Source of the DNA: a virus
Length of the DNA: 30,707 nucleotides
Virus record (IMG/VR): IMGVR_UViG_3300027714_000071
Span: 1 to 30,707 of that record
Strand: one strand, 5' to 3'
The translations under genes and the position numbers were made by a program. Each line of letters starts with the position of its first letter. The stretch's first letter is position 1. A model generated the notes under the pieces. That model ran no database searches, was not told the DNA's origin, and saw only the letters and a program-made list of their open reading frames with translations. This document shows positions 2,729 through 30,707 of this stretch, piece by piece.

Positions 2729-3214
2729 ATGATTAGAATGAAAAAAATATTGACAGAAACAAAGCAAGAAGAAAATTACCGTAAATTAAGCGGTAAACAG
2801 AGAAAGCTTGTAGTAGATGCAGTTAACAAGTTTAATAAATTTGAACAACACATTTATAGACAAAAAGATGTTAAGGATGTAGTTGAAGCAATAAAAATTA
2901 TAAGTGAGTATGCTGGTAGGTTAGCTTTAGATGAAACAGGTGATTGGTTTGATGGTGTAACTGTTAAGAAGGATGTTAAAGAAATTAATGACAGTGTTAA
3001 GTTATTTGAAAAAACAGCTAAAGAAGTAGGCACCTTGCAACATCGTTTAGAAGCTATGTACGAGAATATCGGTGGTAAATTAAGCCGTTACTATGAAATA
3101 GCAGATGTAGATAATACTGTCCCAGTAGCTCCAAAAAATGCTAATTTAAAAGAAAAGCAAGTTTTTTACACCGATGATAAAGGTAGAAAACGTAAATTTG
3201 ATGACGGTAAATAG
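2729..3214 (+). CDS. Small unknown helical protein
   Basis: I place the start at the ATG at 2729, 8 bases after the gp21 stop and with GGGAAA just upstream. The same frame extends back to a GTG at 2702 inside gp21, which is less likely. A second ATG at 2738 is also possible. The product from 2729 is 161 residues, Lys- and Glu-rich, almost entirely predicted helical, with a short basic tail containing DDKGRKRKFDDGK. There is no signal peptide or membrane segment. Its place between protease and scaffold suggests a prohead core or internal protein, but no family is recognised. Confidence 0.72.
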   Translation: MIRMKKILTETKQEENYRKLSGKQRKLVVDAVNKFNKFEQHIYRQKDVKDVVEAIKIISEYAGRLALDETGDWFDGVTVKKDVKEINDSVKLFEKTAKEVGTLQHRLEAMYENIGGKLSRYYEIADVDNTVPVAPKNANLKEKQVFYTDDKGRKRKFDDGK

Positions 3215-10502: not shown

Positions 10503-13500
10503 ATGGCTAAACCAGGCGATTTAAGCAGCAAAAAAATAAAGAATTCATATAAAGCGATCGTGCAACACGATGGTGCAACCTCTAGGTTGTATGATGGTAC
10601 AGGTTCACGTGTTAACAGCATTGATGTACCGAGAATTACTGCAAGTAATGCATCTCTCGCTAACATACAAGATCTACAGCACCTAACTGTCTCAAGAGTT
10701 CAAATAGATACACATTTATCAGTTTCTGGTTCAACCTTTTTAGGGGATGATTGTGGAACTGATCAAGTTAAGGTAGTTGGAAATACCTGGATAACAGGCT
10801 CACTGACCGTATCAGGATCATGTCAAGGATCTTTTAGAAGTATAGGTCAAGCTAAATTTATTTATTTAGATAATCCTGGTATTGAAGATCAAAAACCTGC
10901 TCGTGTTACTCGAGGGATGGTAAAGGGTAAATATAATGTACCTCGATTTGGTGGTGAAGTAGCTGCCTTAGATGTATATGGAAATGCAGTTATTACAGGT
11001 TCCCTTATAGTAACTGACACAGTATTTGCTCAAGAATTTCATTCTGAAACTGTATCGCAATCAATAATATTTACAAGTGGTTCAACTAAATTCGGTGGCG
11101 ACTTTAATGATACAATGACTGTTACTGGAAGTATTTTTCAATCCGGATCAGATGTTTATTTTTTAAATGGCATTGGTATTGGAACCACCGGTAGTTTAAA
11201 AACTGGTACATTTGATGAACCAGGTCAAGATAATCCTGTAGAGTTTACGCATCTACTGACAATATCTGATCCAGGACATAACGGGTTACAGTATAAAAAA
11301 GGTAAACTTATATATGCCGGGTATGGTAGTAAAAATGCAACCCATGTATCTGCAAGTGATACGGTAAGGGTAAGAGATTATTCAGCTGGTACAGTAGGTG
11401 ACGATGTATTTGTAATCTCTCAAGTATCTAAATCTGTATTTTTCTCAACTAATGATGAATATAATGTTGGTATAAGTGTACCGTCTGGTTCAAATTCACA
11501 AGTAGATCAAAAACTTGTAGTAAGCTCATCATCAGATACAAGAGTAAAAATAGAATCTGCAACTAAAGCCACATCAGCATCTTTATATTTAGAATCCGGT
11601 CAAGGAGTTTGGGAGCTAGCAGTAGCATCTAGATCGGCTGCAGAAGAGAATATGCTTGAAGAGTCGTTAGTATTTAGAACGCGTAATTCAAAAGCTATTC
11701 ATAGTGCATGGAGTGCTAACGGTACTTATGCTGAATCACTTAGATTGAACAATTTAGGTAAAGCAGGATTTAATATACCGTACGATACAGCAACTTATGA
11801 ACTCAACCAGCAAGTTACTGTAAGTGGTTCCTTAAATATAATTCAAGGAAGAACTATAGATATAAATTCAGGTACATTCCATAACTCAGATAATACAAAC
11901 GGAATTTACTTCAACAATCAGAAAATGATATATGTTTCTGGTTCAGGTGCAGCTACAAGTATATTCTTAGGTGTAGCCGCTGGTGGTGTAGCTACAGCTA
12001 CTGATGGTCACGCTAATATAGGATTTGGTTACCAGTCAGGTATGTCTTTAACTAGTGGTCATCGGAATGTACTGATAGGGGATAATGCTGGTAAAGCAGT
12101 AAGTACAGGTGATGCGAATGTGTTCATAGGAGAAGCTGCAGGACTAAAAGCTACTACCGCTGAGAATTGTATTGCAATTGGGACTGGTGCATTATATAAC
12201 ACAGTAGCTGGTGCCCAAAGTAATATTGCTATTGGACATATGGCTATAAAAACTGGTGTAGCTACTGGTGATTATAACACTGCTATAGGAACTCTAGCTT
12301 TAGAAGATTTAACTACAGGTGCAGATAATGTAGCAATTGGTAGTTCAGCAGCTTTAAACTTAACTACTGCAACTGATTCAATTGCAATCGGACACGATGC
12401 AATGTCAGGTGGTGTAACCACAGGTAACACTAACATAGGGATAGGTAAAACTACCTTGAACAGTTTAATAGCAGGTACAGGTAATATTGCTTTAGGTAGA
12501 AGTGCTGGAAAAGCAATGGTTGACAACGAACATAATATTGCTATTGGTCATCACGCACTTTATACATCAGCTGGAACTGCAGATAAAAATATTGCTATCG
12601 GTTACAATGCAATGAAGGGATCTCTTGTAACTGGAGCTGATAATATTGGTATTGGTCAACTAGCATTAGATGCATTGTTAGGAGGAGCCAACAATATTGC
12701 ATTGGGTAAACAAGCTGCAGAAGAGTTGACAACAGGTTCAGATAATATTGCACTTGGATTAACTGCAATGGGTGCAGGTATTACTACAGGTGATAGAAAT
12801 ATTGCTATTGGTAAACTATCTTTGAATACAGTAACTGGTGGAGAAGATAATATAGCAATAGGGTACCGAGCTCTAAGAGATACACAAGCAACTGCAGCAA
12901 GAAATGTTGCTATAGGGTATCAAGTTGCATATGATGGCGTACTCACTGGTGTAGATAACATAATAATGGGTACTGATGCAGCAAATGCTGCAACTTCATT
13001 AACTGAAAATATAGTTATTGGGCATAAAGCAGTAGAAACTGGTGTCATGACAGGTGATCATAATACAGTAATTGGTCCAAGAGCTGCACAAATTATAACA
13101 TCTGGAGCGGATAACGTAATAATAGGTGGTTCTGCTGGAGTATCAGTAAATACAAACACAAAAAATGTTTTAATAGGATCAGGTTCTGATGCATCTGCTG
13201 GTTTAGATAATGCGTATGCAATTGGAACAGGTGCTTCTGTAGCTCAAGCTGATTCATTAATACTAGGTGGTCAAACTGGTAAACGGTTTAGAACTGCAAT
13301 AGGAGGTATAACGAAACCAAATGCAACTTTAGAAGTATCTGGAACGATTAACGTAACAGGTTCAGCTGTATTCTCAGGATCAGCAACTAATGGTTTAGGT
13401 CATGAAGGTCATACATTGAAAACTATCGGTACTACTGTAATGTCAGGTACCTTAAACAATGAGCACTTCAGAAAAATGAGAGCTCTTGAAGTATCCGGTA

Positions 13501-16151
13501 CTACAAGTTTTCATGGTAATATGTTTATAACTGGTAATCTATTTGTATCTGATATTGTAGTTGCTCAAGAGTTTCACACTGAATTTGTATCAGCTTCTAT
13601 AACATTCTCGTCTGGCTCTAATAAGATGGGTGATACTAATGATGATATGCAAATGATGACAGGCTCACTGCGAGTTTCAGGGTCAGGAGCTCACTACTTT
13701 ATGGGTAAACAAGACTCATCAGGTGTAGGTCCAGGTGCAGGTGGTTCTGGAAATGCAAAAGTTGGTATCAATACAATGGCTCCTGCATATGAATTAGAAG
13801 TTGCTGGTGACGTAGGTATTGATAGATTTATATACCACTCAGGTGATACAGATACACATTTACTATTTAGTAATACAGATAAATTAAGATTATCAGCTGG
13901 TGGTCATAGATTATCAGTATCAGGATCAACTAATAATAGTAAAGTAGTAATTAACGAGAGCAAAGGTGAGATGAACTTCCAGATACAGGGACTCACGCAT
14001 GCTGGTAGTTTAGATGAGGAAAATGTATTATTTGTATCAGGTGGAGCTTTAATTACTGAAAACTCTGCTACTCAGAGAGGTTCAGTCGGTATACGTACCT
14101 CTAACCCTACTAAAGCATTGACTGTATCTGGTTCAATTAGTGCAAGTAATGATCTATACGTTCTAGGTGACGGTACATTTGGTACTGCAACTGTGAATAT
14201 TAAAGCTAACGGACAACTTACTGCATCTAGTAATATATGGGCAAGTGGAATTGGTAGTTATATTAGTTCAAGTACATTAAGAGTTCAACATCTAACCGCC
14301 TCCAGAGTAACTGCAAGTGTGGTAAGTGCAAGTCTTATGGTTGTAGCTAAATCAGGTAGTTTTCTGAATTTAGTTGTGACAGGTTCAGGTGCAGCTGGAT
14401 CAGGATCATTTGGTAGGATAGATGTTGATAGAATTCGAATTCATAATCATGAGATAGTGGATGGAGCTGGGTTAACTGTAGATGGATTAACTACTATTTT
14501 AGGAACTGCAGGGCAGAACGATCAACCAACAGTAATGCACGGAAATCTTACTGCTTCTAATGCATGGTTCAGTGGATCAGGTGGTAATATATCTGCATCT
14601 ACAATGACACTTACTAACAATTTAACAATAATGGGTAATATATCAGCTACTCATATAACAGCATCCGGTGAAATAAGTTCAAGTAGTACAGGTTCATTTG
14701 CATACTTAAGAGTAGCAGCTAATCCAGTACCTGCAGCATCTAATAATGTAGTAATAGCTGAGTTTGTAGGAGATTCAGATTCACTTATAATTAAGAATGA
14801 AGCAGAAGGTGACTATTCAATTGGTAATAATGCACAAGACAATAAAATTGTATTTAGAGATGGCTCAGGTGGATTAGATTTCTATTATAATAACTTAAAT
14901 TTAATGGCTCTTACTGAGCATGGAGTTGGTATATCTGCTACTAACTCTACAGTAAATAACGCAGCTGGACAAACACTTCAAGTCCGTGGTAATATATCAG
15001 GTTCAGGAGCATTAACTGTTCAAGGGTCAGGATCGTTTGGAGGTCACGTTACAGCATCAGGTAATATAAAATCAGCAGGTGATATAAGCGCAAGTGGGAC
15101 TGGTTATTTTGGTAATGTTTACGCTCCAGGAAATATAAGTTCAAGTATAACTGCAACAGGTTCGTTTGGTGATGGTAGATTTATAAGTCGTGTTGGTATA
15201 GGAACAAATACACCAGATTGTAGCCTTGAAGTAGATGCTGCAGCAGATAATTTAATTGCAAGATTTAATTCAACAACTAATGAAGACATTACAAAGGGAA
15301 TAAGAATTAATGCCCCAGATGCTGGTGGAACACAAATATATATGGATCTTGTAGTTGATCCTGTTGGAGATAAAGTAGGAATCGGAATTGGTACAGCTGG
15401 TGGTAATTTACCAATTGGAGATGCTAATCTTGATAATGCAGAATTGGTAATAGATTCTTCTGGTAATATTGGTATAGGAACATCTTCACCAACTGAAATA
15501 TTAACAGTAGAAGGTACAATATCAGGTTCTAGTGACCTACACCTTGGACATGGTTCTGACGGAACAGGTAATATTCGCATAAGTGGTTCAGTTGCATCAC
15601 GTAACTACAGATCTTTCTATATAGCAGCTGCAGGTATGACGCCATCAGTTACCAACGGTGCATCAACAGGGACTGAAGAACGTCCAGGTAACGCAGGTGG
15701 TGATATAACATATTCAACAGTCGATTACCTTGCATTTGATGCATCAACTAATGAAGCCGCTAATTTCCAGATTGCAATGCCAGGTGAATGGGATCTTGGA
15801 ACTATTAAAGCTAGATTCTATTTTATGACTGATACAGCTGATGGTGGTACAAATAATGATATAAGGTGGGCGGTATATGCAGAAGCAATAAGTGATAATG
15901 AATCAATTAATAATGATTTTAATAGTGCAGTTGCTATTACTTCTACAGCTCATAATGACGATGAAAAACTAGTTATATCAGACGCTACAGTAGCCCTTAC
16001 AGTTGAAAACTCACCAGCAGCTCTCGATTTAATTACTTTTCAGGTAACAAGATTTGCAGGTGCTGCTGCAGATACATATGCAGGTGACGCACATCTACTA
16101 GGTGTTTCAATTCAATATCAAGAACGCGTAATTCCAGAAGCTGCATGGTAA
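10503..16151 (+). CDS. Giant fibre-like structural protein, 1882 residues
   Basis: This is a long, repetitive, Gly/Ser/Thr/Asn-rich protein, probably a trimeric tail or whisker-type fibre. The N-terminus (1-90) is the likely attachment part. Most of the chain is built from VSGS/ITGSL-type beta repeats. A FxAQEFHxExVSxSIxF module occurs twice (about residues 173-195 and 1018-1040). Residues about 503-924 hold over twenty repeats with the core N(I/V)AIG, like the left-handed beta-roll of YadA-type heads. Four linkers of the type VGI(G/N/R)T..P.LEV.G lie further on. From about 1700 on there is a compact C-terminal domain starting RSFYIAAAGMTPS, probably the receptor-contacting tip. There is no intramolecular chaperone (S74) ending that I can see. 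Ribosome site AGGGAAAG. LamG gene follows after 12 bases. Fibre role is inferred. Confidence 0.8.
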   Translation: MAKPGDLSSKKIKNSYKAIVQHDGATSRLYDGTGSRVNSIDVPRITASNASLANIQDLQHLTVSRVQIDTHLSVSGSTFLGDDCGTDQVKVVGNTWITGSLTVSGSCQGSFRSIGQAKFIYLDNPGIEDQKPARVTRGMVKGKYNVPRFGGEVAALDVYGNAVITGSLIVTDTVFAQEFHSETVSQSIIFTSGSTKFGGDFNDTMTVTGSIFQSGSDVYFLNGIGIGTTGSLKTGTFDEPGQDNPVEFTHLLTISDPGHNGLQYKKGKLIYAGYGSKNATHVSASDTVRVRDYSAGTVGDDVFVISQVSKSVFFSTNDEYNVGISVPSGSNSQVDQKLVVSSSSDTRVKIESATKATSASLYLESGQGVWELAVASRSAAEENMLEESLVFRTRNSKAIHSAWSANGTYAESLRLNNLGKAGFNIPYDTATYELNQQVTVSGSLNIIQGRTIDINSGTFHNSDNTNGIYFNNQKMIYVSGSGAATSIFLGVAAGGVATATDGHANIGFGYQSGMSLTSGHRNVLIGDNAGKAVSTGDANVFIGEAAGLKATTAENCIAIGTGALYNTVAGAQSNIAIGHMAIKTGVATGDYNTAIGTLALEDLTTGADNVAIGSSAALNLTTATDSIAIGHDAMSGGVTTGNTNIGIGKTTLNSLIAGTGNIALGRSAGKAMVDNEHNIAIGHHALYTSAGTADKNIAIGYNAMKGSLVTGADNIGIGQLALDALLGGANNIALGKQAAEELTTGSDNIALGLTAMGAGITTGDRNIAIGKLSLNTVTGGEDNIAIGYRALRDTQATAARNVAIGYQVAYDGVLTGVDNIIMGTDAANAATSLTENIVIGHKAVETGVMTGDHNTVIGPRAAQIITSGADNVIIGGSAGVSVNTNTKNVLIGSGSDASAGLDNAYAIGTGASVAQADSLILGGQTGKRFRTAIGGITKPNATLEVSGTINVTGSAVFSGSATNGLGHEGHTLKTIGTTVMSGTLNNEHFRKMRALEVSGTTSFHGNMFITGNLFVSDIVVAQEFHTEFVSASITFSSGSNKMGDTNDDMQMMTGSLRVSGSGAHYFMGKQDSSGVGPGAGGSGNAKVGINTMAPAYELEVAGDVGIDRFIYHSGDTDTHLLFSNTDKLRLSAGGHRLSVSGSTNNSKVVINESKGEMNFQIQGLTHAGSLDEENVLFVSGGALITENSATQRGSVGIRTSNPTKALTVSGSISASNDLYVLGDGTFGTATVNIKANGQLTASSNIWASGIGSYISSSTLRVQHLTASRVTASVVSASLMVVAKSGSFLNLVVTGSGAAGSGSFGRIDVDRIRIHNHEIVDGAGLTVDGLTTILGTAGQNDQPTVMHGNLTASNAWFSGSGGNISASTMTLTNNLTIMGNISATHITASGEISSSSTGSFAYLRVAANPVPAASNNVVIAEFVGDSDSLIIKNEAEGDYSIGNNAQDNKIVFRDGSGGLDFYYNNLNLMALTEHGVGISATNSTVNNAAGQTLQVRGNISGSGALTVQGSGSFGGHVTASGNIKSAGDISASGTGYFGNVYAPGNISSSITATGSFGDGRFISRVGIGTNTPDCSLEVDAAADNLIARFNSTTNEDITKGIRINAPDAGGTQIYMDLVVDPVGDKVGIGIGTAGGNLPIGDANLDNAELVIDSSGNIGIGTSSPTEILTVEGTISGSSDLHLGHGSDGTGNIRISGSVASRNYRSFYIAAAGMTPSVTNGASTGTEERPGNAGGDITYSTVDYLAFDASTNEAANFQIAMPGEWDLGTIKARFYFMTDTADGGTNNDIRWAVYAEAISDNESINNDFNSAVAITSTAHNDDEKLVISDATVALTVENSPAALDLITFQVTRFAGAAADTYAGDAHLLGVSIQYQERVIPEAAW
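12010..13275 (+). repeat. YadA-like NIAIG repeat block
   Basis: More than twenty degenerate units of about 18-24 residues (54-72 bases) each contain N-(I/V/T)-(A/G/V/I)-(I/L)-G followed by an Ala-rich turn and a (T/S)TG(A/D)xDN step. Examples are NVFIGEAAG, NIAIGYNAM, NIALGKQAA and NVIIGGSAG. The period is at protein level; codons differ between units, so this is an old repeat. The pattern fits a trimeric beta-roll shaft. Confidence 0.85.
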
Positions 16152-18484: not shown

Positions 18485-21049
18485 ATGGCAGAAAAAATCG
18501 TCAGTCCAGGTGTATTTACCAGAGAAAGAGACTTATCTTTCTTACCAGCAGCTATCGGAGAAATCGGAGCAGCTATTATAGGACCAACAGTAAAAGGTCC
18601 AGCTTTTGAACCAACTATCATCGAATCTTTCAAAGAATTCGTACAGGTGTTTGGACCTAAATCTAAAGAATCGTATGTACCTTATACAGTTGAATCGTAC
18701 CTAAAAAGTGCAGGTCGTGTAACTATAGTAAGAGTCCTAGGATTAAAAGGGTACACACTTACTAATGGATTAGTAACAGTAACCGCTGATCTAGGATTAC
18801 CAGCAGCTAAAGTATCTAAAACAGTAGCAGCATTTCATCCATCACAAGTTGATGATGATGCTAAATTCACTGCAACTTCAGGATCTATACTAGATGTATC
18901 AGGTTCAGGTTTTGTAATGCTTTTATCAGGTTCTGCTGCAGATTATGCTCCAGCAACTAATACTACAGTAGGTATTACAGGACATCAAATTCAAGCTCCT
19001 GTAGCAACTAAACCAAATCATGTAGGTTCAGCAGCAACAGGTGATACAGCTTATTCAATGTCATTGAATCCAGCATCTGCTAACTTTATATCAAAAGTAT
19101 TTGGTAAAACACCTAAGGATAGAAAGAAACCAGTATATAGCTACGTATTCTTTAGTAACGAAGCTTCAAGATCAAATGCAAATTCTAGCCCCGCTAACGG
19201 TATAACAACTGTAACAACAAGAGGTAGAAAAACTTTAGATTTAAGTACATTATATAATACTAATAAAGATGAATATGAAGCTAGAACACCATTTGTACAA
19301 TCACAGAAAATTGGTGGTAAGGTAATAGATTTATTTAAAATTCATAGACGAGCACACGGGTCAGCTACTAATTACGAATTCAAAATAGCTATCGATAATA
19401 TTAGAGCAGCTGGCACAGTTGCAGGTAGTGAATACGGTTCATTCTCAATAAGATTAAGAAGTGTTGATGTAAATTCAACTATACACAGTCAACTATCACC
19501 ATTTGCAAATAGCAATGATCAAGATAGAAGGCCAGAAATTATTGAGCAGTTTAACAACTTAACTCTAGACCCTAACTCACCTAATTTTATTGCGAGAGTC
19601 ATTGGTGATAAGTTTCAATCTTTTGATGCTAATGGTAAAGTAACAATAAAAGGTGATTATGCTAATCTTTCAAGACATATATGGGTAGAAGTTCCTGAAG
19701 ATGTTAAAGATAAAGGTATACCACCTACATTAGTTCCATTTGGTCATGCAGCATTAACTGATCCTATTTCAATGACAACCAATGGCGTAACAGCTTGTCC
19801 ATCTGCATCTATTATTGGACAGACAAACCCATCAGTTAGCAAGAGAACACAAATTCTAGATAATGTATATAACAAAAACGTTTATTACGGTTTTGATTAT
19901 TTAGAATCTGATAATCATAATTACTTAAAACCACTTCCAGATGAGGGTAAATCAGTTGGTAACAATGTAGCATTTAATTTAAGTAACGAGAAACAACATC
20001 CATCAGCATCTTTAGCTGGAGGCCTTACAATTACAATTACACCAGGTGGTTCTACAATTAATTTAGCTACTAAGAAATTTATATTACCTTTCCAAGGTGG
20101 TTTTGATGGATTTAATCCTTCAAGATTTGTAGGATTAGATACAAACATTTCAGCTGCAAATATGCAAGGATTTGATTTATCAACTGCAGAAAAGGATGGA
20201 TCTTTAGCTTACAAACGTGCTATAAACGCAGTAAGTAATCCAGATGAATACGATATTAACATGATGGTTACTCCAGGTGCTAATCATAGACTTCACTCAG
20301 TAGTAACTACACATGCTAAAAATTTATGTGAAGAACGTGGAGATGCATTCTATGTAATGGATGCAGCTAACTATGGTGACTCAATCGCTACAGTTACTAA
20401 TACAATTAAAGCTTTTGATTCCAATTATGCTGCAACGTACTATCCATGGTGTAAAATACTTGATACTGATATTAATAAACCAGTATGGGTACCACCATCA
20501 GCAGTAGTACCAGGAGCTATAGCATTTAACGATCAGGTTGCATTCGAATGGTTTGCACCAGCTGGTCTTAATAGAGGGACACTTACTGAAGTTATTGAAA
20601 CAGCAGATAGAGTAACACACGAAGAGCGAGATGATCTTTATGAAGGTAGAGTAAATCCTATTGCAACATTCCCTGGTCAGGGAGTATGTATATGGGGTCA
20701 AAAAACACTTCAAGGAAGGCCATCGGCATTAGACAGAGTAAATGTTAGAAGATTATTAATTGCAGTTAAGAAGTTTATCGCATCAGCTACTAGATACTTA
20801 GTATTTGAAAATAACACTTCAGCAACAAGAAATAGATTTTTAAACATTGTAAACCCGTATTTAGAATCAATACAACAAAGACAAGGATTACATGCATTTA
20901 AAGTAATAATGGATGGATCTAATAACACACCTGATGTAATAGATAGAAATCAGATGGTAGGTGAATTATTTTTACAACCAGCTAAAGCAGCTGAATTCAT
21001 TATATTAGACTTTAACATATTACCAACAGGTGCAGCGTTTCCTGAATAG
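18485..21049 (+). CDS. 18: Tail sheath protein, T4 gp18-like, copy 1
   Basis: This 854-residue contractile sheath protein is longer than T4 gp18 (659). The N-terminal domain (1-88) reads SPGVFTRERDLSFLPA, AAIIGPTVKGPAFEP, VQVFGPKSKESYVPYTVESY and GRVTIVRVLG, the standard start of contractile sheath proteins. Residues about 90-198 are a variable, Ala/Ser/Gly-rich insertion. From KVFGKTPKDRKKP on, the conserved body resumes, including NRGTLTEV, ERDDLYEGRVNPIATFPGQG, VCIWGQKTL, and the C-terminal strand region DVIDRNQMVGELFLQPA ending in FNILPTGAAFPE. Ribosome site AGGAG. It is followed 31 bases later by a paralogue with the same ends. Confidence 0.93.
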   Translation: MAEKIVSPGVFTRERDLSFLPAAIGEIGAAIIGPTVKGPAFEPTIIESFKEFVQVFGPKSKESYVPYTVESYLKSAGRVTIVRVLGLKGYTLTNGLVTVTADLGLPAAKVSKTVAAFHPSQVDDDAKFTATSGSILDVSGSGFVMLLSGSAADYAPATNTTVGITGHQIQAPVATKPNHVGSAATGDTAYSMSLNPASANFISKVFGKTPKDRKKPVYSYVFFSNEASRSNANSSPANGITTVTTRGRKTLDLSTLYNTNKDEYEARTPFVQSQKIGGKVIDLFKIHRRAHGSATNYEFKIAIDNIRAAGTVAGSEYGSFSIRLRSVDVNSTIHSQLSPFANSNDQDRRPEIIEQFNNLTLDPNSPNFIARVIGDKFQSFDANGKVTIKGDYANLSRHIWVEVPEDVKDKGIPPTLVPFGHAALTDPISMTTNGVTACPSASIIGQTNPSVSKRTQILDNVYNKNVYYGFDYLESDNHNYLKPLPDEGKSVGNNVAFNLSNEKQHPSASLAGGLTITITPGGSTINLATKKFILPFQGGFDGFNPSRFVGLDTNISAANMQGFDLSTAEKDGSLAYKRAINAVSNPDEYDINMMVTPGANHRLHSVVTTHAKNLCEERGDAFYVMDAANYGDSIATVTNTIKAFDSNYAATYYPWCKILDTDINKPVWVPPSAVVPGAIAFNDQVAFEWFAPAGLNRGTLTEVIETADRVTHEERDDLYEGRVNPIATFPGQGVCIWGQKTLQGRPSALDRVNVRRLLIAVKKFIASATRYLVFENNTSATRNRFLNIVNPYLESIQQRQGLHAFKVIMDGSNNTPDVIDRNQMVGELFLQPAKAAEFIILDFNILPTGAAFPE

Positions 21050-21080: not shown

Positions 21081-24000
21081 ATGGCAGAAAAAATAGTTAG
21101 CCCAGGTGTATTTACAAGAGAAAGAGACTTATCTTTCTTACCAGCAGGTGTTGCACAGATAGGAGCCGCAATTATAGGACCAACAGTAAAAGGTCCTGCG
21201 TTTGAACCTACAATTATAGAATCATTTAAGGAATTCGTACAAGTATTCGGACCAAAAACTTTAGATAGTTATGTTCCTTATACAGTTGAATCTTATTTAA
21301 AAAGTGCTGGTCGAGTAACAGTTATACGTGTGCTTGGATTAACAGGTTACACGCCGAACTTAATTGGAATTAAAGCAGTAGAATCCTCTGCTGGAAGTTT
21401 ATCTTCTGCAGGAGGTACTAGTAAGTTAGTCGCAGTACTACACCCAACTCATGTTGATAGTGATGCTAAATTTAATGCTAAATTTAATGATGGTGTAGGA
21501 GAAATCTCAAACCTTTATTTCACTGGTTCAGGTGGTAATGCAACTGGTTCTTTTAGAGGATTTTTCCTTACATTATCTTCACCAGATCCTGCAGGAGGAG
21601 CAGCTGATGAAAAATTTGGATTCTTCTTTACAGGTTCGCAAGGAGTAAAAGCTCCGCAAACTAATATGCTAGGAAATGCAGCACCAACTGGAATGCCATC
21701 AGTAACTAAACAAATTAAAATGTTTATGCCATCTTCATCTACTAGTGCTAACACTACTAACCCACAAGCTGCAGTTGTTGGTGCTAAAATAAATGCACTT
21801 AACTTATCTGGTTCAATAGTACAAGTTATTGCCTCAGCTATTAATAGAATTACATCAAGTAGAGTACCAGGTGTAAAATTATTCTCTGCAAGAACATTCC
21901 AAAGTTCTTCAACTCAAGGTGGTAACTCAGGTACATTTACTTCAGGAACAATGGGAGCATTTGCTAACCTACCAGCAGCGAATTCAATAGAAGTTCGTAA
22001 TAAGTTTACTGGAAATGTAGCTAATCCTCAAGTAGGGCATGATGCATCATTAACTCAACCAGTTGCAGGACCAGCTACAGCATCATTTACTATAAAGATA
22101 GGTAGTGATAGTACGTTGAATGGTTCTATTGACGGAGGTTCATTTACATTGTATTTAACTGATGATCAAGCAGGAACAGGAGTAACTACTTACTCACCAC
22201 AAACAAACTTTACAACTGGTCATACTGACACAGGTAATATATTAACTTCTAATACAACTTACTCTAGTTCAATAGATACAACGAATGAGAATTGGCTTGG
22301 TAACGTATTCGGAAGAACACCTAAAGATAGATACAAACCAGTATACAATTATATGTTATTTAACTCATATGCATCAAAATCATATGCTGCAGATAGTTTA
22401 GTAACAGTAGCTGCAAATATAGCAGACAATAAATACTTGCATACATATGCAGGTAATAATGCTTATGAAGCAAGAACGCCATTTATTGTATCACAAAATT
22501 TAGGCTCTTATGCATCACCTAAAACAACTAGGTTATTTAAAGTTCATACTAGATCTCATGGATCATGTGAAAATTATGCATACAAAATCGCAATTAGTAA
22601 TATTAAAGATTCAAGTGCAGTAGCTGGATCAGATTACGGTACATTTACTCTAACATTACGAAGAGTAGACGTTGATGGTACTATACATGCAGCTAACTCA
22701 CCTTACCCAGCATCAGGTGACAAAGATTTAAGACCTCATATATTAGAGACTTACAGCAATCTAACTCTGGACCCTAACTCACCTAATTTTATTGCGAGAG
22801 TTATTGGTGACAGATATCAAGAAATTGATGCAAACGGTAAAGTAACAGTTTATGGTGATTATGCAAACTTAAGTTACTATATACGAGTAGAGGTACCGGA
22901 AGATGTTAAAGACCAAGGTATATCAGCTGATTTAGTACCGTTTGGATTTGAAGCTTTATCTCAACCAGTTATAGCAAATGTAGGTACTATGCCATCAGCA
23001 TCACTTATTGGTCACACTAATGCAACTGTAGAAATAGGTTCAGGTGGTACAATTACTACTCACAATCTTAAGAAAACTCAAATAGCAGATAACGTTTACA
23101 ATAAGAGAATTCATTATGGATTTGACTATTTAGATAAAGATAACTATAATTACTTACTACCAATACCGTCAGAAGATTCAACTGTAGGGGATAACAAGCA
23201 CTTTAACTTATCACATTGTACACAACACCCATCAGCTTCTTTAGCAAATGGAGCAGAATTAACTATAACACCTGATGGAGCACTTATTAATCTATCAACT
23301 AAGCAATTTATAGTACCTTTACAAGGTGGTTTTGATGGACTTAATCCTTCAAGATTTATTGCAAAGGATAGTGATATAGTAGCTACTAATATGCAAGGGT
23401 TTGATTTATCAAACGCAGAAAAAGGTGGTTCAAAAGCTTATAAAAGAGCAATTAATGCAGTAAGTAATCCAGATGAATACGACATTAACTTAATGGTAAC
23501 TCCAGGACCTAATCACAGATTACACTCAGTAGTAACTACACATGCTAAAAATCTATGTGAGGACAGAGGGGATGCTTTATATCTAATGGATGCAGTAGGG
23601 TATGATACAACAACTATATCTACAGTAACTAATACAGTTAAGCCACTTGATTCTAACTACGTAGCTACATATTGGCCTTGGGTTAAAATACTTGATACTG
23701 ATAAGAATAAACCGGTATGGGTACCACCTTCTGCAGTAATGGCAGGTGTAATATCTAAAAATGATCAGGTTGCATTCGAATGGTTTGCGCCAGCTGGATT
23801 GAACAGAGGTATTTTAACTGAAGCTATTGATGTACCAACAAGATTAACGCATGCAGAGAGAGATGATCTTTATGAAGGTAGAGTAAATCCAATTGCTACG
23901 TTTAAAGAAGGAATTTGCATCTGGGGTCAAAAAACACTTCAAGCTAGACCATCAGCATTAGATAGAATTAACGTACGAAGATTATTAATAGCAGCTAAGA

Positions 24001-24278
24001 AATTTATTGCATCTGCAACTAAATACTTAGTATTTGAAAATAACACTTCAGCAACTAGAAATAGATTTTTAAATATAGCAAATCCATACTTTGAAAGTGT
24101 ACAACAACGACAAGGGTTATATGCTTACAAGGTGATAATGGATGGATCTAATAACACAGCAGATGTAATAGATAGAAATCAGATGATTGGTGAGATATTC
24201 TTACAACCAGCTAAATCTGCAGAATTTATTATACTAGACTTTAATATTTTACCAACAGGAGCAGTATTCCCTGAATAA
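21081..24278 (+). CDS. Tail sheath protein, T4 gp18-like, copy 2 (long)
   Basis: This 1065-residue paralogue of the preceding sheath protein is nearly identical over the first 60 residues and strongly similar over the C-terminal 660. The difference is the variable region: here residues about 90-402 (some 310 residues) against about 110 in copy 1. It is Ser/Thr/Gly/Asn-rich (FTGSGGNATGSFRGF, SGTFTSGTMGAFANLP) and probably forms an extra surface domain on the sheath. All the conserved sheath blocks, including VCIWGQKTL-like ICIWGQKTL and DVIDRNQMIGEIFLQPA, are present, so it is not a broken copy. Start has AGGAG 8 bases upstream. Whether both copies enter the same tail, or one forms a special ring, is unknown. 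Confidence 0.92.
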   Translation: MAEKIVSPGVFTRERDLSFLPAGVAQIGAAIIGPTVKGPAFEPTIIESFKEFVQVFGPKTLDSYVPYTVESYLKSAGRVTVIRVLGLTGYTPNLIGIKAVESSAGSLSSAGGTSKLVAVLHPTHVDSDAKFNAKFNDGVGEISNLYFTGSGGNATGSFRGFFLTLSSPDPAGGAADEKFGFFFTGSQGVKAPQTNMLGNAAPTGMPSVTKQIKMFMPSSSTSANTTNPQAAVVGAKINALNLSGSIVQVIASAINRITSSRVPGVKLFSARTFQSSSTQGGNSGTFTSGTMGAFANLPAANSIEVRNKFTGNVANPQVGHDASLTQPVAGPATASFTIKIGSDSTLNGSIDGGSFTLYLTDDQAGTGVTTYSPQTNFTTGHTDTGNILTSNTTYSSSIDTTNENWLGNVFGRTPKDRYKPVYNYMLFNSYASKSYAADSLVTVAANIADNKYLHTYAGNNAYEARTPFIVSQNLGSYASPKTTRLFKVHTRSHGSCENYAYKIAISNIKDSSAVAGSDYGTFTLTLRRVDVDGTIHAANSPYPASGDKDLRPHILETYSNLTLDPNSPNFIARVIGDRYQEIDANGKVTVYGDYANLSYYIRVEVPEDVKDQGISADLVPFGFEALSQPVIANVGTMPSASLIGHTNATVEIGSGGTITTHNLKKTQIADNVYNKRIHYGFDYLDKDNYNYLLPIPSEDSTVGDNKHFNLSHCTQHPSASLANGAELTITPDGALINLSTKQFIVPLQGGFDGLNPSRFIAKDSDIVATNMQGFDLSNAEKGGSKAYKRAINAVSNPDEYDINLMVTPGPNHRLHSVVTTHAKNLCEDRGDALYLMDAVGYDTTTISTVTNTVKPLDSNYVATYWPWVKILDTDKNKPVWVPPSAVMAGVISKNDQVAFEWFAPAGLNRGILTEAIDVPTRLTHAERDDLYEGRVNPIATFKEGICIWGQKTLQARPSALDRINVRRLLIAAKKFIASATKYLVFENNTSATRNRFLNIANPYFESVQQRQGLYAYKVIMDGSNNTADVIDRNQMIGEIFLQPAKSAEFIILDFNILPTGAVFPE

Positions 24279-24352: not shown

Positions 24353-24841
24353 ATGGCACAATTAATCGACCCAACAGAAGCAATGTTCACGGCATTCGAG
24401 CCGAAGACACAGAATAGGTTTATCATGTATATAGATGGTATTCCTGCATATTTAATTAAAAAAATCGACAGACCATCAATTACTTTTGGTGAGGTAACTC
24501 TTGATCACATTAATGTGAAGAGAAAGCTAAAAGGTAAAGGTGATTGGGGAACAGTCACATGCGACTTATACGATCCAGTAGTACCATCAGCAGCACAAGC
24601 TGTAATGGAATGGGTTAGACTATCTCATGAATCTGTTACTGGTCGTGACGGATATGCAGATTTCTACAAGAAGGACATTACTTTTAATGTATTAGGTCCT
24701 GTAGGTGATAAAGTCGAAGAATGGACATTGAAAGGTGCGTACGTACAATCAACTGCTAAAGGTAGTTTAGATTGGAGTACAGATTCAGCATTGATGCTTT
24801 CAATTACATTATCTTACGACTATGCAATACTACAGTTCTAA
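24353..24841 (+). CDS. 19: Tail tube protein, T4 gp19-like
   Basis: This 162-residue protein matches the length of T4 gp19 (163). It forms the inner tube of the contractile tail. Seen: N-terminal FEPKTQNRFIMYIDGIPAYL, then PSITFGEVTLDHINVKRKLKGKGDW, CDLYDPVVPSAAQAVMEWVR, FYKKDITFNVLGPVG, and WTLKGAYVQSTAKGSLDWST with a C-terminal beta strand ending LSYDYAILQF. These strands and the Lys-rich loop are standard for the T4-type tube family. It directly follows the sheath genes, as expected, and has a GAGGAG ribosome site. Confidence 0.95.
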   Translation: MAQLIDPTEAMFTAFEPKTQNRFIMYIDGIPAYLIKKIDRPSITFGEVTLDHINVKRKLKGKGDWGTVTCDLYDPVVPSAAQAVMEWVRLSHESVTGRDGYADFYKKDITFNVLGPVGDKVEEWTLKGAYVQSTAKGSLDWSTDSALMLSITLSYDYAILQF

Positions 24842-24888: not shown

Positions 24889-25692
24889 ATGAGCGAAAAC
24901 ATTAAAGTTACGGCTAAACAAGAAAACAAAAAGAAATTTCCAACCGAATTTATCGATCTTCCAAGTCAAGGGTGGTTCTATCCAGAAAACCACCCTTTGG
25001 CATCTGGTCAAGTAGAGTTAAAATACATGACTGCACGAGAAGAAGATATTCTTACATCCGCAAATCTTATTAGACAAGGTAAAGTTATTGATACACTTAT
25101 CAATGCACTTCTAGTATCAGATATTAATTACGATGATATATTAGTTGGTGATAAAAATGCAGTAATGATAGCTGCAAGAATATTAGGTTATGGTAAAGAT
25201 TATGAAATTGATCTTAACTGTCCTAAATGTGGTGAAGTTAATAAACTAACTATAGATCTTACTAGTCTATCAAATAAAGAACTACCTTTTGATAAATACA
25301 CAAAAAATTCATCTGAGTTTGAATTTGAATTACCATTATCTAAATCTTCAATTACTTTTCAATTAATGAACGGTACAAGTGAGAAAGCATTAGAAAGTGA
25401 AATGAAAGGGTTAGCCAAGTTTGCAAACAAAAAAGGACCTGGTAAAACACTTACAACTAGATTAAAACATCAAATAGTTGCTATCAACGGTAATCGTGAT
25501 ACAAAAGCTATACGAGATTTTGTAGATAATGAATTATTTGCACAAGACTCTTTAGCATTACGTAATTATATGAGAGAAGCTGCTCCGGATGTAATAACTA
25601 AATTCAACTTCGAATGCGATAGTTGTTCACATACGGAGACTGTCGATATGCCTATCGACGCCGGCTTTTTTTGGCCTAGCTCCGAAGCATAG
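24889..25692 (+). CDS. 26: T4 gp26-like baseplate/tail assembly protein
   Basis: This 267-residue protein belongs to the T4 gp26-type base plate family: FPTEFIDLPSQGWFYPENHP near residue 17-36, LKYMTAREEDIL (44-55), and a long helical middle. Two CxxC pairs, C111/C114 in LNCPKCGE and C243/C246 in ECDSCSH, probably bind a zinc ion. In T4, gp26 is involved in hub assembly. In this phage the gene sits between tube and tape measure, the slot of frameshifted tail-assembly chaperones elsewhere. The 0-frame ends MPIDAGFFWPSSEA just after a run of seven T; the overlapping downstream frame appears to be its continuation (next entries). It starts with an AAGGG site. Confidence 0.85.
   Translation: MSENIKVTAKQENKKKFPTEFIDLPSQGWFYPENHPLASGQVELKYMTAREEDILTSANLIRQGKVIDTLINALLVSDINYDDILVGDKNAVMIAARILGYGKDYEIDLNCPKCGEVNKLTIDLTSLSNKELPFDKYTKNSSEFEFELPLSKSSITFQLMNGTSEKALESEMKGLAKFANKKGPGKTLTTRLKHQIVAINGNRDTKAIRDFVDNELFAQDSLALRNYMREAAPDVITKFNFECDSCSHTETVDMPIDAGFFWPSSEA
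25666..25672 (+). other. Possible programmed frameshift site (T7)
   Basis: In the gp26-like frame the codons are GGC TTT TTT TGG. The seven T at 25666-25672 let two Phe codons slip. A +1 shift (or a -2 shift) moves into the frame of the downstream extension, giving AGFF or AGFFF followed by GLAPKHRALIHEEVF. The 0-frame stop is at 25690-25692, 18 bases after the T run. A single-base error in the homopolymer would give the same picture. Confidence 0.6.
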
Positions 25693-25906
25693 AGCTTTAA
25701 TTCATGAAGAAGTTTTCATGCTTTGCTTTTACGGTAAAGGTGGATTTACTCATGATGAAGTTTATAATATGCCTAGGTACCTCCGTCAGTTTTACCTTAA
25801 ACAGATAGAGAAGATTAATACTGAGAGAGCTGAAGCTCAAAAAGCTTCTGATAATCACTCTTCAGGTAGGTCAGAAATATTTAGTCCCCCCACGGTAAAA
25901 CAGTAG
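25670..25906 (+). CDS. Frameshift extension of gp26-like protein
   Basis: The reading frame in the +1 phase continues from the T run to TAG at 25904-25906, adding 78 residues. An internal ATG at 25718 exists, but coding-like sequence clearly begins earlier: APKHRALIHEEVFMLCFYGK precedes and spans it, and this ATG has no proper ribosome site. The segment contains GKGGFTHDEVYNMPRYLRQF followed by a Lys/Glu-rich helix YLKQIEK and a polar tail. The pattern 'H-E-E-x-F...FYGKGGFT-x-E-V-x-N-M-P-x-x-x-R' resembles the small helical domains added by frameshifting in tail chaperones (lambda G-T type) and similar ones in myophages. A full-length fusion would be about 338 residues. Independent expression from 25718 is the alternative. 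Confidence 0.65.
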   Translation, partial: FGLAPKHRALIHEEVFMLCFYGKGGFTHDEVYNMPRYLRQFYLKQIEKINTERAEAQKASDNHSSGRSEIFSPPTVKQ

Positions 25907-25958: not shown

Positions 25959-26195
25959 ATGAAAAATACAAAGAAAACTATTATAAGTGAAAGCACCTTT
26001 AATTGGCTGCTAAAAATCTTATTAGGTAAAAATAATGCAATGAAACTAAAATATTTTGCAGCTATTAAAACTAATCCAAAATTATTAAAACTATCTAAAG
26101 AGCTTGAGAAAACTGCTGCTGAAATGGAACAGCAAATGAAACGAACTCATGGTGATTTAGATCCATCTGATCTTAAAAGAATGAGAGGGAATTAG
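25959..26195 (+). CDS. Small unknown helical protein
   Basis: This 78-residue protein is preceded by AGGGAG 4 bases before its ATG. Its basic N-terminal half includes NWLLKILLGKNNAMKLKYF, which could be an amphipathic helix but is too charged for a plain membrane anchor. The C-terminal half is a Lys/Glu-rich helix (LSKELEKTAAEMEQQMKRTH) ending LDPSDLKRMRGN. It is followed 9 bases later by the tape-measure gene. Possible tail assembly or tape-measure partner; function unknown. Confidence 0.7.
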   Translation: MKNTKKTIISESTFNWLLKILLGKNNAMKLKYFAAIKTNPKLLKLSKELEKTAAEMEQQMKRTHGDLDPSDLKRMRGN

Positions 26196-26204
26196 TAGAT
26201 AATC

Positions 26205-29200
26205 ATGGCTAAAAAGAATAGTAGAAATATTGTAAAAGGTGTTGGACCTGATGCTTATAATCAGTCAGGTCCGAAGGTTGCAAATGAACATAAAAAGAAC
26301 ATTGATTTAACCGGTAAACAGTTAGATCAAGTTCACGATATGGCGACTGCTTATGAAAATATATCAGATTTACAGCAGAAGATGTATATGGAAGCTGACG
26401 CATTACATGGTATAGAGAAAAAAACTTTAAATCTTTTAAAAGTCCAAGATAATAAATTAAAATCTATTTCACTTCAAACACAAAATCTTTTAGATATGAA
26501 GCGAGAGGATAGAAATATCTTAGAAAAAACTATAAGTGATTATGATGATTATAACTCTGCAGCAGCTCAGGTAGCTGAACGAGCAAGTGAGCTTAATAAT
26601 TTCATGAAGCAACGGATTCCTTTTGAAGATAAGATTAAAAGTATTAGATCTGAAATTGACTCATTACAGCAACGTGAAAGTAAAGGCTTATCTGCAATGC
26701 AGAAGCAGCGAATGGATGAACTAGGTACATTAGAAACTCAGTTTAAGACTCTTTCTAAAAAAACAGAAGTTCTTGATAAACAAGAAAAAATACAGAATAA
26801 TATAAAAGAAGCGATAGATGGCCAGTTAGGAGCCGCTGGTCAAATATTTAACACTTTAAAAGATATAGTTACTAATCCATTAACACTATTTACTGGTCTA
26901 CTTGCAATTGGATTGCAAAGATTTGAAACCATGCGTCAACGTGGTAACGAGTTAGCAGAAGAGATGGATCGAGTTAATAAAAAACTAGCTGGAGCAGGCC
27001 CTTACCAAGATAAGATATTACAGAAAGCTGATTTAATTAAAAAGCGTTTCTATGAAATGGGAGAAGGATTCTCTAGTAGCCTCGAAGGATCAGTTGATGC
27101 AATAGTAGCACTAGGTGATGAAATGGGTAAAGTTGATTATGTAACCGGTGATCTAGTTAAAACTATGGCCGAGTTAAAATTATCGATCGGATTAAGTGAT
27201 GAATCATCAGCTAAAGTTCTTAGTAATTTTATGATGGTAAACGGTCAATCAAGTGAAGCTGCTGTCAATATGACTGATTTGACTTATCAAATGGCAGAAC
27301 AAGCAGGTTTAAATCCACAGCAGGTGTTTCAAGATATAGCTGCTGCTTCAGGTGATACCTTAGCTACGTTTAGCGGTTCAGCTGACGAACTAGCTAAATC
27401 TGCAGTTCAAGCTAGGCGTTTAGGTTTAACTTTAGATGATATGGCTAAAGTGTCTGAAGGTTTACTAGATTTTGAGACATCTATAGAAAAAGAAATGGAA
27501 GCTCAATTAATCACTGGGATGGATCTTAATTTCCAAAAAGCTAGAATGTTAGCTATGCAAGGTGATGAAGCTGGAGCAATGGAAGAGGTAATGAGGCAGG
27601 TTGGAGGTCTAGATAAATTTAATAAAATGATGCCTTACCAACAAAGAGCTCTAGCTTCAGCTGTAGGGCTTACAGTAGGACAATTGCAGAAAACAACTGA
27701 TCAGCGAGAAAAGGAAGCAAAGCATGCTGAGATGAAACACGATCTAGTAGATAAGCAATACAAGTTAGCTGAAAAAGCATTGCCAATGTTAGGCAAACTT
27801 GATGCAGGGTTGGGTGTGATGGAACGTATAGCTGTAGTTATAGGTGATTTATTCTTAGATGTATTTGGTACTGGGTTAAAAGAATTAGAAGCTACATTCT
27901 TTACATTTTTAGAATCTAAAGCTTTTAAAACTGGATTTAAAAATGTACTATTCACTATTAAAGGTGTTATTATAGGTATTAAAGATGCTGTTATGGGAGT
28001 TGCATCATTTATTGATAAACTATCAGGAGGTGCAATAGGAGGATTCTTAAAAAGTTTTGCTTCAAAAGATTTTTCTGGAAGCTATGGAAAAGCTGAGGGT
28101 GTTGGTAAAACAATCGGAAAAGGTATTGCAGTACTTTTGGGTACTAAGTTACTTCTAGGTTCTTCACCACTTACACCTATGTTTGTATCGATGGGTGGAG
28201 GAATGTCAAGTATGTTTGGTGGGTTGAAGAAAATGTTGAGCGGTGGGTTAAAATCTGATGGTACACCAGATTTGCGACTTAAAGGTAACAAGTTTGGAGG
28301 TGGAGTAATGCAAAATGTAGGCTCTAAAATGTTTGGAAAAGCCAGTGTAAAAGGTATGGGAGGATTAAGTTCATCTGCAGGAGGAGCTTTAATGGGAGGA
28401 TTAGCAGGAGCAGCAATTATTGGAAAAGGAATTTACGATGTAGCAACTTTAAAAGGTGATGCATCTGGTAGAGAAAAGGGTGCAGCTAAATCAGGCTTAG
28501 GTGGAGCAGCTCTTGGTGCTGCAATTGGAACTATGATTCTACCTGGTATTGGAACAGGTGTTGGAGCTGCTATTGGATATATAGGAGGACATTTAGTTGC
28601 AGAAACTGGTATATTTGATGATGAATTAGATAAATCACGTAAGAATTTACAACGTCAGCAGGAGCAGATGAACCGTATGCAGAGAGTTGAATCAAATAAG
28701 ATGATGTACGCTGAAAAGAAAGTTCATTCTAGTATTATAGCTAGCTTCAAGGAATTATCAGGCGGTACAGATGATTTATCTAAAGAAGGTTTAAAGACAT
28801 TTAAAGACAAAGTTATAAAGGCAGGTTATGTTACTGAGAATGAATGGAACAAGCATGTTAGAAATGGTGCAAGTGACATCGACTTGATGAATATTGCAAC
28901 CCGAGGAGCTACTACAAAACTAGACAACTTTGCAAAAGCTAAACAGAATGAGATAGATAGGTTAAACGAAGAATCTGGTTATAGTGGAAGGCAGATGGGT
29001 ATAGAGAATAGACAGAGTGAAATTAGTAGTCTTGATCTAGTAAGTAGAGCTGATATAGAAGCATTTGTTGAAGGGGTTAATGGGAAAAGAGATGCAGTTG
29101 ATGGTGTAAATGCATATTTCACCGGTGATGCAGTCAATCTTTTCCGAGATGAATTTCATACCTTAGCAAAGCAATTGATTGATGAATCTACTGGGTTAGA

Positions 29201-30707
29201 ATTCACTGATGCTCAAATTGCTAAAGCATTGCAAGGAGCAGGTACTGAAATTAATGCATTTGTAACTGACGACGGACTTACAGCTGATGTTATTGAAGAT
29301 GTTATTCATTATCTAAAAAAGGATATTAAAACGAACTTGAATACTGAGCTAGCTGAACAAACTAAAATTGTAAATAAAAATATAATTGCAACAAATAAGA
29401 AAATGAAAGTTGATGAAGCTATCACCACTATAGATGGTGGTAAGGTAATGAAAGTCACAAATGTTGATAAAGTAGAAAAAAAACTAGCAGACGGTGGATT
29501 ACTTAATGGACCTTCACATGCATCAGGGGGTATTCAAACTCCATTTGGTGAGATGGAAGGTGGTGAAGCAGTAATAAATAAACGTTCTACTTCAATGTTT
29601 AAAAACACACTATCACAGATGAATGAAGCTGGAGGAGGAGTTGCATTTGGAGATGGAGGTGTTACTAATAAATTTGAAAAAGGAGGTACTGTTGGTCCAT
29701 ACGGTGTTCCTTTAGAAAATGTACCAACTAAACCATCAGGTGAAATATTTCCTTTATCAACTAGTAATACTAAAGGTGGTGATAGAATCAGTTATACACA
29801 AGATATCCGAAAAGATAATTGGATTAATAAAATGGTTGACACAGGTAAACACGGATTCGATCATGATTTCGGAGGTACACGAACTCTAAAGAACCCTTAT
29901 AAAGGTATGTCGAAAGCGGATATGAAAATGAGAGATATGGGTCCTCAAATATCAAAAATGCATTCATCTGGTATGAGTCAAGAAGAGATACAGGAGTTTA
30001 TACGAGGTAGGACTTTGGGTGGAACGATGGACGATGATTCTAAAATGTCTCCTGGTATGCATTTAGCGCTTGATTTAATGGGTTTGATTCCAGTAGTAGG
30101 TAATTTTTTCGATTTAATTAACGCAGCAGCATACACTAGAGAGGGTCATTATGCTCATGCAGCACTCTCTGCAGCAGCAGCTATCCCAGGAGCTGGTTAT
30201 GCAGCAGCAGCAACCAAGTTAGGTATTCAAGGTACTAAAACTGCTTCTGTAATAGGTGCTGGATTCCATGCAGTAGAATACCTAAATATAGGTAATGAAG
30301 CTAGAAAGCTTGTATTTGAAAATCCTGAGGACCCTGGCCATGGATTTGCAATAGAAGGAGATCCAGGATTTGAAGTACCTAGAGGTGGGAAAGTCAGTGA
30401 TGAAGCTAAAATGAACATGGGATTAGATAAGAAAATGCTCAGTGGAGAAGATGCTTTTGGAGAAAGAGGTGGTATAACTGCTAAATCACCTGTTACTAAA
30501 GTAAATGACATGATCTTAACTAAAGATGGTCAAATGATCGAAACACATCAAGACGATAACTTGATAGCTAAAAAAGGTAATATCACTCAAAATACAAATA
30601 CAAGTACAGGTGGTAAGAGTAAAGTAGAAGAATTATTAGAAAAATTAATAATGGTAACGAGTCAAAAAGGTGACGTATTTATGGATGGAGCTAAAGTATC
30701 AGCTGCA
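26205..30707 (+). CDS. Tail tape-measure-like protein, 3'-truncated
   Basis: The frame from the ATG at 26205 stays open to the end of the window: 1501 residues, no stop. Seen in order: a coiled-coil N-terminus (residues 1-200); a hydrophobic TLFTGLLAIGL (about 225-236); long helical sections including MAEQAGLNPQQVFQDIAAAS and RLGLTLDDMAKVSEGLLDFE; a hydrophobic stretch FTIKGVIIGIKDAVMGVASF; glycine-zipper-rich stretches (about 725-800) such as GLGGAALGAAIGTMILPGIG; then a C-terminal region with GPSHASGGIQTPFGEMEGGE and AVINKRS, typical of tape-measure proteins; a pretoxin-like hydrophobic patch (about 1280-1350); and the VFMDGAKVSAA strand at the edge. A tape measure sets tail length and is ejected. 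The ribosome site is weak (GAGGG 17 bases upstream), so translation may be coupled to the preceding gene. Confidence 0.85.
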   Translation, partial: MAKKNSRNIVKGVGPDAYNQSGPKVANEHKKNIDLTGKQLDQVHDMATAYENISDLQQKMYMEADALHGIEKKTLNLLKVQDNKLKSISLQTQNLLDMKREDRNILEKTISDYDDYNSAAAQVAERASELNNFMKQRIPFEDKIKSIRSEIDSLQQRESKGLSAMQKQRMDELGTLETQFKTLSKKTEVLDKQEKIQNNIKEAIDGQLGAAGQIFNTLKDIVTNPLTLFTGLLAIGLQRFETMRQRGNELAEEMDRVNKKLAGAGPYQDKILQKADLIKKRFYEMGEGFSSSLEGSVDAIVALGDEMGKVDYVTGDLVKTMAELKLSIGLSDESSAKVLSNFMMVNGQSSEAAVNMTDLTYQMAEQAGLNPQQVFQDIAAASGDTLATFSGSADELAKSAVQARRLGLTLDDMAKVSEGLLDFETSIEKEMEAQLITGMDLNFQKARMLAMQGDEAGAMEEVMRQVGGLDKFNKMMPYQQRALASAVGLTVGQLQKTTDQREKEAKHAEMKHDLVDKQYKLAEKALPMLGKLDAGLGVMERIAVVIGDLFLDVFGTGLKELEATFFTFLESKAFKTGFKNVLFTIKGVIIGIKDAVMGVASFIDKLSGGAIGGFLKSFASKDFSGSYGKAEGVGKTIGKGIAVLLGTKLLLGSSPLTPMFVSMGGGMSSMFGGLKKMLSGGLKSDGTPDLRLKGNKFGGGVMQNVGSKMFGKASVKGMGGLSSSAGGALMGGLAGAAIIGKGIYDVATLKGDASGREKGAAKSGLGGAALGAAIGTMILPGIGTGVGAAIGYIGGHLVAETGIFDDELDKSRKNLQRQQEQMNRMQRVESNKMMYAEKKVHSSIIASFKELSGGTDDLSKEGLKTFKDKVIKAGYVTENEWNKHVRNGASDIDLMNIATRGATTKLDNFAKAKQNEIDRLNEESGYSGRQMGIENRQSEISSLDLVSRADIEAFVEGVNGKRDAVDGVNAYFTGDAVNLFRDEFHTLAKQLIDESTGLEFTDAQIAKALQGAGTEINAFVTDDGLTADVIEDVIHYLKKDIKTNLNTELAEQTKIVNKNIIATNKKMKVDEAITTIDGGKVMKVTNVDKVEKKLADGGLLNGPSHASGGIQTPFGEMEGGEAVINKRSTSMFKNTLSQMNEAGGGVAFGDGGVTNKFEKGGTVGPYGVPLENVPTKPSGEIFPLSTSNTKGGDRISYTQDIRKDNWINKMVDTGKHGFDHDFGGTRTLKNPYKGMSKADMKMRDMGPQISKMHSSGMSQEEIQEFIRGRTLGGTMDDDSKMSPGMHLALDLMGLIPVVGNFFDLINAAAYTREGHYAHAALSAAAAIPGAGYAAAATKLGIQGTKTASVIGAGFHAVEYLNIGNEARKLVFENPEDPGHGFAIEGDPGFEVPRGGKVSDEAKMNMGLDKKMLSGEDAFGERGGITAKSPVTKVNDMILTKDGQMIETHQDDNLIAKKGNITQNTNTSTGGKSKVEELLEKLIMVTSQKGDVFMDGAKVSAA

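Follow-up and report, generated by a model that had tools for sequence, protein, structure and literature searches.

Programmed frameshifting is established in phage tail chaperones at large, and a +1 shift is thought very likely in HSTV-2 (PMC5009743). For T4, gp26 and gp51 are counted among the chaperones of hub assembly (PMC3004832), where gp51 is given as an essential protein whose function is unknown and which the particle does not contain. According to PMC10885494 and PMC12846349, the tail assembly chaperones of T4-like phages were identified by Vladimirov, Gautam and Davidson (2022), who reported that some of these phages carry one short and one long fused gene; poly-T -1 signals are also known in T4-like TAC-N genes (PMC12846349). 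The farthest-reaching point of an earlier note on the DNA analysed here, that T4 gp26-like proteins are relatives of tail assembly chaperones, therefore holds but, going by these citing papers, is not new, and the T4 gp26/gp51 chaperone pair was dropped as a novelty for the same reason. In the part of the literature covered, we found no description of a +1 site in this T4-type group; that site, its breadth and its change of direction appear to be new.

The probable frameshift gene and its neighbourhood

The window, the whole stretch of 30,707 nucleotides analysed (IMG/VR record IMGVR_UViG_3300027714_000071), contains a T4-type tail module of two sheath-like genes, a tail tube gene, a gp26-like gene, a small gene and a tape measure gene. 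The order tube, gp26-like gene, tape measure puts the gp26-like gene in the slot occupied by G/GT-type genes. The features considered are the following.

24353-24841, plus strand: tail tube gene (T4 gp19-like), upstream neighbour (PF06841, E 5e-7; PHROG 4542 tail tube, E 2e-26)
24889-25692, plus strand: gp26-like gene, putative short chaperone form (TAC-N), 267 aa (PF12322 T4_baseplate)
25666-25674, plus strand: proposed +1 slip site TTT_TTT_TGG (sequence; conservation in relatives)
25667-25906, plus strand: +1-frame C-terminal domain (TAC-C), slip site to stop inclusive, three helices
24889-25906, plus strand: predicted long form (TAC-NC), 338 aa via a +1 shift (translation with one +1 step)
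25718-25720, plus strand: first ATG of the +1 frame, within helix 1, an unlikely start
26205-30707, plus strand: tape measure gene, running off the end of the window, neighbour on the downstream side (PHROG 167 tail length tape measure, E 6e-13)

The small gene (25959-26195, 78 aa) that separates the gp26-like gene from the tape measure gene has no convincing family match, and a gene of similar size lies at the matching place in Microcystis phage Mel-JY01. Two adjoining genes, 18485-21049 (854 aa) and 21081-24278 (1065 aa), match the tail sheath family PHROG 23 and form a duplicated or two-type sheath, and several stretches of the ORF at 10503-16151 (1882 aa) match tail spike and virion structural families.

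The 3' end of the gp26-like gene reads GGC TTT TTT TGG CCT AGC TCC GAA GCA TAG, with the stop at 25690-25692. The seven T that the earlier note had placed in the codons TTT TTT TGG are indeed present (25666-25672; frame 0 GGC TTT TTT TGG CCT), and they recur in other metagenome contigs identical over the C-domain (L103-L105). The +1 frame stays open over 25598-25903, with its stop at 25904-25906, and reads FFGLAPKHRALIHEEVFMLCFYGKGGFTHDEVYNMPRYLRQFYLKQIEK...; translation with one +1 step gives the long-form junction ...MPIDAG-FF-GLAPKHRALIHEEVF... The site does not follow the canonical -1 heptamer pattern (X_XXY_YYZ), as the domain sits in +1, but by sequence it fits a +1 P-site slip, with re-pairing one base downstream (UUU to UUU) and a slow A-site codon, UGG making up 0.65% of the codons in the window. 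An Rfam search of the site region gave no match, and the downstream RNA structure is slightly enriched (mean z -0.80 vs -0.31), an enrichment too weak to be counted as evidence. No Shine-Dalgarno-like match precedes the ATG at 25718, unlike most other genes in the window, and an ATG at the equivalent position is missing in most relatives.

The gp26-like protein belongs to PF12322, the gp26/gp51 family (E 7e-14, 52.5 bits, cut-off 24.5). AlphaFold2 models were made of the N-domain and the C-domain separately rather than of the fused protein. The gp26-like model (pLDDT 87) matched many phage gp26-like baseplate hub proteins in Foldseek. The C-domain model (pLDDT 83, with a mean above 90 over residues 11-60) has helices at residues 6-22, 29-33 and 37-64. 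Its helix 1 starts upstream of the ATG at 25718, in line with the earlier proposal that the domain runs continuously across this first +1-frame ATG. Solved structures searched by sequence gave no relative for either domain. The C-domain falls just below the threshold of DUF6760 (PF20546), a family of unknown function (24.9 bits against a cut-off of 27), and 10 of 47 relatives match that family at E up to 0.01, so DUF6760 may include the chaperone C-domain; a search for the family in 295 bacterial genomes of one class gave no match, but neither did any positive control, so this negative carries no information. The C-domain model also resembles one stretch of the tape measure chaperone of Moogle (TM 0.63, with an E-value of 2.2 that is not significant), a likeness that is suggestive only.

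Conservation of the site and of the two frames

The site was compared across eighty IMG/VR relatives (45-84% identity, one identical), the window and three phage records, which gave 83 usable sites in 33 clusters at 70% identity. TTTTTTTGGCCT is kept in 72 of the 83 relatives and the same C-domain lies in the +1 frame in 79 of 83, in agreement with the earlier proposal of a gp26-like protein fused by frameshift to a C-terminal helical domain, with a conserved T-run and offset frames; the exceptions keep a different but workable slip site. None of the assemblies examined has six or eight T giving a single open frame. Among 23 loci fetched with the C-domain, independently of gp26 and partly overlapping the gp26-based set, 22 have the exact TTTTTTTGGCCT motif and one has TTTCTATGGCCT. 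A further six contigs, from bins of bacterial or archaeal genomes, are all +1, five with TTTTTTTGG and one with TTTTTTTTC. The two cultured carriers are Microcystis phage Mel-JY01 (TTT TTT TGG) and Flavobacterium phage immuto (TTT CTT TGG). The +1 sites that lack a long T-run are TTCTTTTGG (L016, L024), TTTCTTTGG (immuto), TTTCTATGG (L122), TTTCTATTC (L084), TTCTTTCGT (GXN1) and CTGTTTCGC (BRock). With the arrangement retained in about a hundred sequences of related phages, the conserved frameshift is, on this comparative evidence, a real biological feature, of a type that other phages are already known to have. In the immuto record (L083, 2527-2788) most of the C-domain is unannotated, a missed reading frame. 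In one relative (L009, about 3001-3130) an indel, probably from misassembly, breaks the reading frame in the early part of gp26, and the frameshift site is intact.

The substitution pattern agrees with the view that the +1 frame is coding from the T-run onward. In the close clade, substitutions upstream of the site follow 0-frame periodicity (143/79/270 at positions 1/2/3), those downstream follow +1-frame periodicity (33/22/124), and where the two frames briefly overlap ahead of the 0-frame stop, +1 position 1 is already avoided (1/10/16). The residues FFGL directly after the T-run are invariant in 42 aligned fusions. The 0-frame Pro codon after TGG is CCT in 83 of 83, at a CCT usage of 35% of Pro codons, because the +1 frame requires CTN there. 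In 23 of the 83 loci at most three codons separate the opening of the +1 frame from the site, and in 40 of the 83 no ATG, GTG or TTG is able to start the C-domain before the middle of helix 1. The excess of T7 over codon expectation is only mild (P 0.017 over 33 clusters), and the claim therefore rests on the frames and not on the T-run by itself.

The direction of the shift varies across the wider family. In one sub-clade (L034, L037, L052, L055) a canonical A_AAT_TTC precedes the domain, which lies in -1, and these four loci nest as a single clade among +1 members (support 0.999); a change of direction that preserved the fusion would be difficult to account for if the fused product were not the thing that counts. 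The domain lies in -1 behind T_TTT_TT(C/T) in cyanophages (79 of 79 contigs), KVP40-like phages (2 of 2), Cassandra (PA5oct-like), 121Q, GAP32-like phages, Atu_ph07, Vibrio 2.275.O and XacN1, with T_TTT_TTC at the same place in the cyanophages, the KVP40-like phages, GAP32, 121Q, Atu_ph07 and the PA5oct-like phage; in Ackermannvirus 3M it lies in -1 at a less clear site. Rhodothermus phage RM378 retains TTT TTT TGG and +1, and +1 is also found in the distant gp26 genes of SP-15, LIS04, GXN1, BRock and GiJojo, with a UUU_C type site in SP-15, GXN1 and BRock. The gp51 annotated in cyanophage S-RIM50 and in Vibrio phage phi-ST2 is the -1 frame, shortened so as to begin at an internal ATG (L127, 2235-2372, in the cyanophage; L129, 1908-2075, in the Vibrio phage), and these annotations probably miss the fused product. 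A C-domain encoded as a clearly separate gene, which the earlier note would have counted against a frameshift, is not the general arrangement and is found in one distant jumbo phage only, L086 (LR756511, 2001-2771), in which the C-domain is an ORF whose own ATG overlaps the gp26 stop and gp26 carries a longer tail of its own; for these reasons the frameshift seems to have been replaced there by coupling.

Relationship to T4 gp26 and gp51

PF12322 matches both T4 gp26 and T4 gp51, and the two proteins, encoded by divergently transcribed genes, align with each other (hhalign E 2.8e-22), gp51 being about 48 residues longer. All hhalign comparisons are pairwise between profiles, and their E-values are those of a single comparison. 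Over their whole lengths the cyanophage -1 fusion and T4 gp51 align with E 5.7e-21 (236 columns), and the cyanophage C-domain alone aligns with the gp51 tail (E 1.4e-10), whereas the reversed-profile control gave no match (E 0.14). The window C-domain matches that of cyanophages (E 8.6e-7) and T4 gp51 directly only weakly (E 0.0015), so the cyanophage set is needed as a bridge. T4 gp26 retains FF (EFFELL) at the position of the slip site.

Homology to the established T4 chaperones is thus traced through PF12322 and the cyanophage bridge, and comparative sequence analysis points to a short form together with a frame-shifted, C-terminally extended one. The fused reading across the frames is conserved among the relatives, and the predicted long form is homologous to T4 gp51 over its full length via cyanophage intermediates. 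Because the fusion aligns with gp51 over the full length and gp26 and gp51 share PF12322, T4 gp26 would correspond to the short form and gp51 to the long form; judged by sequence, gp26 is the short form, and gp26 plus the C-domain the long form, of a tail assembly chaperone of the lambda G/GT type. We lean towards a broader view in which the conserved Phe-Phe ending the gp26 domain is a fixed slip pivot in T4-type phages, around which evolution switched direction, with +1 by a P-site slip at UUU_Y and -1 at T_TTT_TTC or A_AAT_TTC, T4 having replaced slipping by two genes; the short/long pair would then be the conserved trait, and the +1 version, common in a large uncultured group, would be a previously undescribed variant.

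Proposed mechanism, alternatives and known systems

The window very probably encodes a two-form tail assembly chaperone gene, read normally to give the short form and, by a +1 slip at UUU_UUU_UGG, the long form. Normal reading should yield the 267-aa gp26-like protein, and some ribosomes would slip +1 with the rare codon UGG standing in the A site. The peptidyl-tRNA-Phe would move from UUU at 25669-25671 to UUU at 25670-25672, the next codon would be GGC at 25673, and reading of GGC CUA ... would then produce the 338-aa protein with its added three-helix domain. The frame required at the site is +1 (or -2), and +1 P-site re-pairing is possible from UUU to UUU (UUU_UGG, UUU_UAU, UUU_UAC), from UUU to UUC (UUU_CUA, UUU_CAC, UUU_CGU, UUU_CGC) and from CUU to UUU (CUU_UGG), the last as in prfB (CUU_U). 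By analogy with lambda gpG/gpGT, the short form may coat the product of the downstream tape measure gene, the domain added in the long form may recruit tail tube subunits, and both forms would depart before tail completion; T4 would have one gene for each of the two products, 26 for the short and 51 for the long. The slippage rate, the P-site mechanism and the chaperone action are what we infer from this comparison, and the proteins would presumably be absent from the virion and bind the tape measure and tube proteins.

Other routes to the same product have to be weighed against a +1 ribosomal slip. A slip by -2, as reported for phage Mu, would reach the identical frame with one extra Phe, and UUU UUU permits such re-pairing in the T7 members; at TTC TTT TGG (L016/L024), TTT CTT TGG (immuto) and CTG TTT CGC (BRock) it would break the pairing that +1 keeps (UUU to UUU or UUC, CUU to UUU), and we regard it as quite unlikely. 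RNA polymerase might instead omit one U at T7, leaving the ribosome a single frame to read, and the homopolymer present in most members would yield the same product in that way. Seven U is short for slippage by a bacterial polymerase, and the +1 domain is retained without a long run in L016, L024, immuto, L122, L084, GXN1 and BRock, which makes transcript slippage very unlikely. The earlier note had named an error of sequencing or assembly as its main alternative, homopolymers being prone to such errors; that standing is lost, since the same offset occurs in about 100 assemblies and in isolates and the selection pattern switches frame at the site, and the probability left to it is negligible.

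Whether the C-domain is fused at all, and what the products do, bears on the interpretation as well. The domain might be made as a protein of its own, initiated at ATG 25718 or at a non-AUG codon and perhaps through translational coupling to the gp26 stop, as the arrangement in L086 and the overlap of the phi-ST2 gp51 ATG with the stop would suggest. Against this, the ATG at 25718 falls within helix 1 and has no Shine-Dalgarno sequence, an ATG before residue 14 is missing from 68 of 83 relatives, and the +1 codons are under selection directly after the T-run; a separate start is accordingly highly improbable. The frameshift might also be real and its products structural hub proteins instead of chaperones, gp26 relatives being annotated as baseplate hub and genetic studies placing gp26 in the hub (PMC3004832). 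The genomic slot, the short/long pair and the absence of T4 gp51 from the virion fit chaperones, an assignment that, according to the papers citing it, others have published, and the hub reading is unlikely.

With the +1 slip as the preferred reading, a large uncultured T4-type group with isolates on Microcystis and Flavobacterium joins the phages that frameshift their tail chaperone, as do more distant relatives on Bacillus, Streptomyces and Rhodothermus. A function can be offered for C-terminal reading frames that are truncated, unannotated, or named hypothetical or gp51, and the natural series of +1, -1 and two genes lends itself to probing the short/long ratio in tail assembly. The group also supplies +1 sites (UUU_UGG, UUU_CAC, UUU_CGC) in a direction poorly handled by a current predictor, PRFect having predicted 0 of 481 forward shifts in one test set (PMC10885494).

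Among known systems, T4 gp26/gp51 share the PF12322 N-domain with the window protein, and gp51 has an N-domain and a C-terminal domain like the frameshift product; T4 uses two genes, whereas the window phage has one gene and a predicted +1 shift. The poly-T -1 chaperones of cyanophages, KVP40-like phages and jumbo phages agree in gene, in the position of the site at the FF codons and in the domain, but shift -1 at T_TTT_TTC where the window has TTT_TTT_TGG and +1. Lambda gpG/gpGT (Xu 2004; PMC5009743) likewise pair a short form with a C-extended long one at a locus that immediately precedes the tape measure gene, but by a -1 slip; in a Foldseek comparison with solved chaperones in the PDB, the N-domain fold has no significant similarity to the HK97 relative of the lambda-type chaperones (2ob9, E 3.0, probability 0.15). 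The myovirus chaperones of Vandenendeviridae and Andersonviridae (Adele, Moogle) also frameshift at poly-T, at GTTTTT and in the -1 direction as opposed to +1 here, and the chaperone of the haloarchaeal myovirus HSTV-2, described as very likely +1 (PMC5009743), would share the direction.
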